From assembly GCF_010747475.1 (NCBI RefSeq), contig NZ_VSLZ01000001.1, positions 124,001 through 188,000 on the forward strand: a stretch of DNA of 64,000 bases, written 5' to 3'. Origin of the DNA: Halorussus sp. MSC15.2 (lineage in GTDB: Archaea; Halobacteriota; Halobacteria; Halobacteriales; Haladaptataceae). Under the pieces are notes generated by a model that worked only from the letters and a program-made list of their open reading frames with translations, was not told the origin of the DNA and did no database searches. This document shows positions 50,831-52,188 of the stretch, piece after piece (positions within the stretch are counted from its first letter, which is position 1; the number at the start of each line of letters is the position of its first letter). The translations under genes were made by a program, and so were the position numbers.

Positions 50831-51328
50831 TCAGTCCTCGTTCGCACCGTAGCGACCGCGGAGGCGGTCCCCGTCCGCCTCGTCGCCCGAAATCTCGAAG
50901 CCGAGCGACTCGTAGAACGGCCGGACTCCGGGGTCGAACTCGGCGGTCAGCGGCGCGCGGCGCTCGGCCGCGGTCCGGACCAGCGCCGACCCGATGCCCC
51001 GTCCCCGGCGCGCCCGCCGGACCGCCACGGCGTCGATGTGCGAACCGTCGTCCGCGCCATCGACGTGCGAATCATCGTCCTCGCCAGCGACCAGTACGAG
51101 CGCACCCAGAATCGGACTGTCGCGGCCTTCCGCGTCTCGCGGCTTCGCCGCTCGATTCTCCGAGTCGCGTCGCTCCTCGTCCGCCACCAGCACGTCCCCG
51201 GCGTCGATTCGGTCGCGGAGGTCGTCGCGGACTTCGAGCATCGCGGCGTCGAGGACCCGCCGGACGCCGAGTCGGTCGTCGGTGGCGGCCTCCCGAATCT
51301 CGACGCCCGCCTCCGACGTCCCCGTCAC
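50831..51328 (-). CDS. GNAT-family N-acetyltransferase with a palindrome-encoded insertion, 165 aa
   Basis: GCN5-related acetyltransferase: EIREAATDDRLGVRRVLDAA at the start, ILGALVLVAG as the central strand, the acetyl-CoA loop VRRARRGRGIGSALV and the end VRPFYESLGFEI. Two low-complexity polar inserts interrupt the early strands. One, RRDSENRAAKPRDAEGRDS (about residues 48-66), is encoded by tandem hairpins at 51121-51151. The other is Asp/Gly/Ser/His-rich (DDDSHVDGADDGSHID). The GTG start overlaps the stop of the SAMP2-redoxin gene by four bases (GTGA), so the genes are translationally coupled. Confidence 0.85.
   Translation of the reverse strand: MTGTSEAGVEIREAATDDRLGVRRVLDAAMLEVRDDLRDRIDAGDVLVADEERRDSENRAAKPRDAEGRDSPILGALVLVAGEDDDSHVDGADDGSHIDAVAVRRARRGRGIGSALVRTAAERRAPLTAEFDPGVRPFYESLGFEISGDEADGDRLRGRYGANED
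51121..51151. repeat. Two tandem hairpins inside the GNAT gene
   Basis: cgcgg-cctt-ccgcg (51121-51134) and gcggc-ttc-gccgc (51139-51151). The second shares the TTC loop of the taw2 hairpin at 3241-3257, and both pairs encode Arg/Ser/Ala/Pro-rich insertions in a surface region. They may be related palindromic insertions, although these stems are only 5 bp. Confidence 0.4.
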
Positions 51329-52188
51329 GCTCGCTCGCCGGCGAGCATCCGGTCGGTCATCGCCAGCACGTCGTCCACCGACGGCCGGTCGCTCGGCTTC
51401 TCCCCGCGGTGGACGGCGTGGAGACGCAGTTCGCCGCCGCGGGCGTCGAGTATCGCCACTTCCGGCATCCGCCCGAGCAGGTCGTGGAGTGCGCCGAGTT
51501 TGCCGAACCGGGTCGGCTGCCCGTACGCCTCGGCGGCGCGCTTGTCCTCGTCGGCAACCAGCGGAAACGGGAGATGGTACTTCTGCTGCCACTTCCCGGC
51601 CTTCTCCTTCGACTCGGGCAGGACCGAGACGACCGCGACGTCGCGGTCGCGGAACTCGTCGTAGCGGTCCGCGAACTCCTGCACCTGCCGGCGACAGTTC
51701 CGACAGCGGTAGTCGCGCTGGAACAGCAGGACGACTGCGACGTTGTCGTCCGGCGGCGTCCGACCGCTCGGCGGGCGTCGGACTACTGTCTCGGAGTCGG
51801 CCGCGAGGTCCGAGAGGACGAGGGGGTCGGGACCCGCCCCGGCGTTGGGCAACTCGAAGTCGAGTTGCGAGACGCCGAGGTCCCTGCGCTCTCGCTCGAA
51901 CTCGGTAACGGGTCCGGCCTCGGCCTCCACCATGGGTTCGCTCTCGCTCCGGCCCTCCGGCGTCCCCGCGCCGGCGTCTCCGTCGCGGCCGCTCCCGCCC
52001 TTGATGAGTCGCAGGACTTTCACGTGGTCGGTCTCGACGGGTTGGTCCTCCGGCACCGGGCGACCGTCCACCATCACCGAGACCTCGTGGGGACTGAGGT
52101 CCACCTCGTCCAGCAAGTCGGCGTAGGTCGCGTCCTCGACTTCGAAGTCGTGGCTCCCCTCGCCGACGACTTCGACGGTCACGTTCAT
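51325..52188 (-). CDS. SAMP2-like ubiquitin-fold domain fused to a redoxin domain, 287 aa
   Basis: Residues 1-65 form a complete beta-grasp small archaeal modifier: MNVTVEVVGEGSHDF, then LSPHEVSVMVDGRPVPED and VKVLRLIKGG, ending in the Gly-Gly (G64-G65) that SAMPs use for conjugation and thiolation. In SAMP2 proteins as I remember them the chain stops there. Here it continues through a polar linker (SGRDGDAGAGTPEGRSESEP) into an AhpC/TSA-like thioredoxin fold with the CxxC pair RDYRCRNCRRQ. The Gly-Gly would need cleavage to become active. An internal ATG at 51933 (MVEAEAG) could start the redoxin alone. The gene leads a coupled pair with the GNAT gene. Confidence 0.8.
   Translation of the reverse strand: MNVTVEVVGEGSHDFEVEDATYADLLDEVDLSPHEVSVMVDGRPVPEDQPVETDHVKVLRLIKGGSGRDGDAGAGTPEGRSESEPMVEAEAGPVTEFERERRDLGVSQLDFELPNAGAGPDPLVLSDLAADSETVVRRPPSGRTPPDDNVAVVLLFQRDYRCRNCRRQVQEFADRYDEFRDRDVAVVSVLPESKEKAGKWQQKYHLPFPLVADEDKRAAEAYGQPTRFGKLGALHDLLGRMPEVAILDARGGELRLHAVHRGEKPSDRPSVDDVLAMTDRMLAGERA

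Follow-up and report, generated by a model that had tools for sequence, protein, structure and literature searches.

SAMP2 needs a free Gly-Gly end for its adenylation and thiocarboxylation. The linear fusion SAMP1-MoaE is inactive until HvJAMM1 cuts it, exactly after the second glycine, both in vitro and in vivo (PMC4443979). Ubiquitin and SAMP precursors of Caldiarchaeum are processed by CsRpn11 and CsJAMM (PMC6043591). Yeast Urm1, a eukaryotic relative of the SAMPs, conjugates to the peroxiredoxin Ahp1 (PMC7016264). The Urm1 of Sulfolobus can conjugate to Ahp1 in yeast (PMC12645042), and in Saccharolobus the urmylated proteins include two peroxiredoxins that resemble Ahp1 (PMC12625751). Mutation of samp2 makes Haloferax hypersensitive to oxidants (PMC5587910). 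In the literature searched, whose coverage is incomplete, we found no mention of SAMP2 in Halorussus or of a SAMP2-peroxiredoxin fusion.

Here we describe such a fusion in a 64,000-nucleotide stretch of the Halorussus sp. MSC15.2 genome (the window). The locus is organized as follows.

52188..51325, minus strand: fusion ORF, 287 aa
51994..52188, minus strand: SAMP2 ubiquitin-like domain, residues 1-65, ending in I-K-G-G (Gly64-Gly65); PF21965, NF041919, PDB 2l32/4hrs
51880..51993, minus strand: polar linker, residues 66-103 (38 aa), Ser66 first
51328..51879, minus strand: redoxin (AhpC/TSA, peroxiredoxin-like), residues 104-287; PF00578 and PF08534 above cut-offs
51694..51705, minus strand: C162-R-N-C165 motif; alignment to 3drn
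51325..51327, minus strand: stop codon of the fusion, overlapping the GTG start of the next gene (GTGA); read from the sequence
50831..51328, minus strand: GNAT acetyltransferase gene, the conserved downstream neighbour of SAMP2; PF13508, 37.4 bits (cut-off 27)

The original prediction of a SAMP2-type domain ending in Gly-Gly at residues 1-65 is borne out by Pfam family PF21965 (104.6 bits, cut-off 27), by the NCBIfam equivalog NF041919 (114.8 bits, cut-off 70) and by matches to the solved SAMP2 structures 2l32 and 4hrs (E ~1e-22); a C-terminal Gly-Gly of the primary product lies outside the curated family definition (NF041919 / PF21965). The frame also runs, as had been described, through a polar linker into a CxxC redoxin, of which residues 151-225 match AhpC-TSA (PF00578, 64 bits, cut-off 26). 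With 222 residues in frame after Gly65, the Gly-Gly is not the C terminus of the primary product. The layout is that of a ubiquitin-like precursor, with an N-terminal Ubl, an internal Gly-Gly and then a partner domain. Ser66 occupies the expected P1' position, which is Ser in 14 of the 19 sequences counted.

The domain resembles Haloferax volcanii SAMP2 (HVO_0202; 2l32, 4hrs) in passing the family cut-off, in its C-terminal Gly-Gly, in its single copy and in its GNAT neighbour, but it is not the end of the polypeptide, being followed by a linker and a redoxin. With Ubl-MoaE (MoaD-MoaE) and SAMP1-MoaE the fusion shares an N-terminal beta-grasp modifier, an internal Gly-Gly, a functional partner and a JAMM gene (PMC4443979), whereas its partner is peroxiredoxin-like, its modifier is of the ThiS/SAMP2 type, and its cleavage is predicted. 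Archaeal Ubl-MoaE fusions were found in Crenarchaeota only (PMC4443979), whereas the SAMP2-redoxin fusion occurs in haloarchaea. Eukaryotic ubiquitin fusion precursors and the CsUb precursor are alike in carrying residues after Gly-Gly that are to be removed (PMC6043591); the C-terminal part in Halorussus, in contrast, is a whole conserved domain with a likely functional link. Yeast Urm1-Ahp1 also pairs a SAMP2-like modifier with a peroxiredoxin in a redox setting (PMC7016264; PMC12645042). In yeast, two separately encoded proteins are joined after translation by an isopeptide bond, whereas the haloarchaeal link is a gene pair or a linear fusion. We propose that the gene encodes a SAMP2 precursor fusion that a JAMM protease would cut after Gly65 to yield SAMP2 and a peroxiredoxin-like partner in a 1:1 ratio, and we assign this reading a probability of about 0.7.

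Conservation of the fusion and of its parts in Halorussus

A separate SAMP2 had been suggested as something to look for, and the source genome (4.41 Mb, 25 contigs, 98.4% complete) was searched for a second copy; none was found, the next best matches having E values of 0.4 or worse. Each of 18 Halorussus genomes, a set that includes Halorussus aquaticus, ruber, salinisoli, litoreus and marinus, has one SAMP2. The junction is in frame in 17 of the 18, and an uninterrupted fusion is read in 16. The fragmentary G012 (62% complete) has the junction in frame and the redoxin broken further on. In G017, the SAMP2 frame stops two codons past Gly-Gly and the redoxin frame continues one base away (KGGAV-stop, at about 1690-1704 of locus L019). 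The split reading is accounted for by one base missing from the Gly-Gly codons; the alternative frame gives S-G-V-S after Gly-Gly, with Ser first as in most relatives. The redoxin tree places Halorussus in a single clade (100/100) with G017 nested within it. Judged from these sequences, the fusion dates back to the origin of the genus.

The probability that the fusion is a sequencing or annotation artefact with a lost stop codon is negligible. One relative, G017, does read as two genes through a single base, but it nests in the fused clade with the same reading frame one base away, and the other 17 genomes agree on the junction. This agreement, together with two separate fusions elsewhere (below), excludes chance, assembly error and a recent accident.

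The three parts of the fusion evolve differently according to Nei-Gojobori style estimates across 16 Halorussus species. The SAMP2 part (mean identity 91%, dN/dS ~0.09) is under strong purifying selection, and the redoxin part shows 72% identity and a dN/dS of 0.35. The linker is nearly free to vary, with a mean identity of 40%, a dN/dS of ~0.72 on an uncertain alignment, half of its columns gapped and a length of 12-50 aa. The Gly-Gly is invariant in every fusion and in the unfused relatives read.

Translation starting inside the ORF might yield a separate redoxin, and a start at the ATG at 51933 had been named as a finding that would overturn the fusion. This codon exists (codon 86) and forms an ATG + GTG pair with codon 87 in the linker of the source genome, but 10 of the 16 intact Halorussus fusions have no in-frame ATG, GTG or TTG between Gly-Gly and the redoxin core. 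The start at 51933 was rejected on this lack of conservation. Internal initiation, which would in any case leave SAMP2 without a free end, is thus very improbable. Programmed frameshifting at the Gly-Gly was likewise rejected; the first out-of-frame stop lies at no conserved distance.

Origin from an adjacent gene pair

Two further fusions (G265 and G324) were found in other genera of the family that includes Halohasta. They fall at different places in the redoxin tree, each apart from Halorussus, and G324 adjoins unfused neighbours (97/86). Since each of the two sequences is long or weakly placed in the tree, their separateness from Halorussus is well supported but their exact sister groups are not. 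These positions suggest that the fusion arose about three times; K-G-G is kept in all three.

In ten genomes of sister genera, SAMP2 is 65 aa followed by a stop and then the GNAT gene, and no close redoxin homologue was found there. In other haloarchaea, this redoxin often has a gene of its own, which lies immediately downstream of SAMP2 in the same orientation. The 99 redoxin loci outside Halorussus comprise 43 adjacent and unfused, 2 fused, 1 beside a broken SAMP2 and 53 non-adjacent; they were collected in two batches, the first partly picked for adjacency, which together make up most of the matches listed. The locus with the broken gene, L077 in the fragmentary genome G150, was considered as a further fusion and rejected. 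A break within the domain disrupts its SAMP2 frame, which continues into the redoxin downstream, probably through an assembly or sequence error. Pairs of SAMP2 and redoxin occur in six families (f3, f4, f5, f6, f8 and f15), a widespread haloarchaeal arrangement that links SAMP2 to a peroxiredoxin-like protein. A GNAT gene lies near 28 of 31 unfused pairs tested and neighbours SAMP2 at 100 of 113 loci inspected. The GNAT neighbour of the arCOG00535 modifier was already listed in 2010 in a table that does not list the redoxin (Table 1 of PMC2948915), and in Thermococcales OsmC-type peroxiredoxins stand beside Ubl genes (PMC2948915).

On the genomes compared, the adjacent pair, not the fusion, is the ancestral state, and the fusions joined an old pair of neighbours. 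Joining SAMP2 to the redoxin requires stop loss only. The original prediction had offered a recent stop loss as one option; stop loss stands as the origin, whereas "recent" does not fit a genus-old fusion with about three origins. Most Halorussus have a Ser encoded by AGC directly after Gly-Gly, and the unfused relative G241 reads GGCGGGTAGCGG at the Gly-Gly-stop site. These two readings raise the possibility, short of proof, that loss of one base turned the Gly-Gly-stop sequence GGG TAG C into GGG AGC.

The redoxin part and its partnership with SAMP2

The redoxin part is closest in sequence and fold to Bcp/PrxQ (3drn) and SelL-related proteins (NF040769). Bcp1 (3drn) is its closest PDB sequence, and the best Foldseek matches are peroxiredoxins (E 2e-6). 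The matched model of the full fusion is of low confidence (six-sequence alignment, mean pLDDT 53) and was used for the redoxin fold alone. The part differs from both groups in three respects. It scores 54.3 bits against NF040769, below the cut-off of 120; it lacks the canonical PxxxT/S-xx-C (Pro-x-x-x-Thr-x-x-Cys) active-site motif, reading QRDYRCRNCRR; and it has a CxxC whose second Cys stands at the peroxidatic position. In the alignment this residue, C165, falls on the 'PGS' position of Bcp1, which is Ser in the crystallised 3drn and which we take to be a mutated peroxidatic Cys. The second CxxC column is Cys in 90 of 91 aligned redoxins. In the first column, 77 of 91 have Cys; 7 of the 17 Halorussus sequences have Ser there, and several other redoxins have Ala. 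The alignment indicates that the redoxin part is probably a one-Cys or unusual two-Cys peroxiredoxin. Loss of the first Cys appeared as a mark of fusion in a first sample (Fisher test) and was dropped when wider sampling revealed Ala in unfused f8 redoxins as well.

The occurrence of a SAMP2-peroxiredoxin pair across haloarchaea, with about three fusions, is in keeping with a functional partnership of long standing, in which the redoxin may be a target or a helper of SAMP2. An archaeal Urm1 relative would then be tied to a peroxiredoxin, the same partnership as in yeast. More tentatively, SAMP2 and the peroxiredoxin-like protein could form an ancestral archaeal Urm1-Ahp1-like module, in which oxidant stress would lead activated SAMP2 to react with the co-made peroxiredoxin at its peroxidatic Cys or at a Lys close by. 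Fusion with JAMM cleavage would fix the ratio of the two and couple modifier supply to redox state; we consider this possible but doubtful. The conserved pair makes it directly testable whether the Urm1-peroxiredoxin partnership predates eukaryotes.

Processing of the SAMP2 precursor

The genes for SAMP2 function are retained in Halorussus. NcsA is present in 18 of 18 genomes and E1 in 17, absent only from the 62%-complete G012. A Prok-JAB protein occurs in all 18 Halorussus and in 28 of 28 family genomes. Labelled by match strength and sequence, with a cytidylyltransferase neighbour for JAMM2 and no tree, a strong JAMM1-type match is present in each of the 28, and G265 and G324 each carry JAMM1-type and JAMM2-type genes. 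All three separate fusions lie in genomes with both types. The unfused genome G274 has a weaker JAMM2-type match only.

The JAMM1-like gene of the source genome lies outside the window (G000:C1:597231-597515). It keeps the HSHPRG...SATD motif and has an apparent one-base frame break just past it relative to its relatives, whereas four other Halorussus copies inspected read through. In a 25-contig draft, an assembly error is a plausible cause; should the break be real, cutting would fall to the intact JAMM2-type gene (C2:245918).

Since the sole SAMP2 gene carries a peroxiredoxin-like protein after its Gly-Gly, SAMP2 in Halorussus probably has to be released by cleavage before it can function. 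This is a natural case of an archaeon whose only SAMP2 appears to need maturation like ubiquitin. SAMP2 would be synthesised as the N-terminal precursor domain of the peroxiredoxin-like protein, and a JAMM/MPN+ desampylase, most likely of the HvJAMM1 type, would cut the peptide bond after Gly65. Free SAMP2 would then be activated by the E1 UbaA for tRNA thiolation and sampylation, and the peroxiredoxin-like protein, with an N-terminal tail, would be released in equal amount. We infer the cleavage, its protease and the placing of both products in one redox-linked pathway, as for Urm1/Ahp1 in yeast. A processed precursor is the best supported of the options first put forward, with the cleavage step itself predicted. 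It is favoured by the sole SAMP2, the invariant Gly-Gly, the kept pathway genes, the JAMM1-type gene throughout and the free linker, and also by the HvJAMM1/SAMP1-MoaE and Caldiarchaeum precedents, the tailed unfused SAMP2 genes described below and the three separate fusions. The fusion tested with HvJAMM1 was SAMP1-led, and we found no literature report of its cleaving a SAMP2-led linear fusion.

Cleavage could instead be partial or conditional, with an uncut form that functions as a pre-attached, inhibited or localised peroxiredoxin and JAMM activity switching between the forms. The inactivity of SAMP1-MoaE until it is cut (PMC4443979), the conservation of the redoxin within the fusion (dN/dS 0.35) and the genus-wide retention of the fusion are compatible with such a switch, but nothing in the variable linker points to a designed tether, and we regard this as unlikely. 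Another option of the original prediction, a permanently tethered beta-grasp domain, would make SAMP2 a fixed regulatory or docking module of the redoxin, no longer a modifier or sulfur carrier. The continuous reading frame agrees with it. However, it would leave genomes that retain E1 and NcsA without any SAMP2, the SAMP2 part is under the strongest constraint of the three, and a buried Gly-Gly is not expected to be invariant across three separate fusions. A permanent tether is disfavoured, and improbable, because the Gly-Gly and the whole SAMP2 tail are under strong selection although they would be buried.

The earlier statement that archaeal SAMPs are normally made ready to use needs qualifying, given the Caldiarchaeum precursors cut by CsJAMM (PMC6043591) and the 14 of 85 unfused SAMP2 genes inspected that continue for 2-17 residues past Gly-Gly. 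These tailed genes suggest that removal of a C-terminal tail is not rare in haloarchaea. At L068 (G045), SAMP2 ends in R-G-G-G-G, and the position of the functional Gly-Gly is ambiguous. The tailed unfused genes are at loci L044, L049, L053, L055, L056, L057, L062, L069, L074, L102, L103, L129, L135 and L139.
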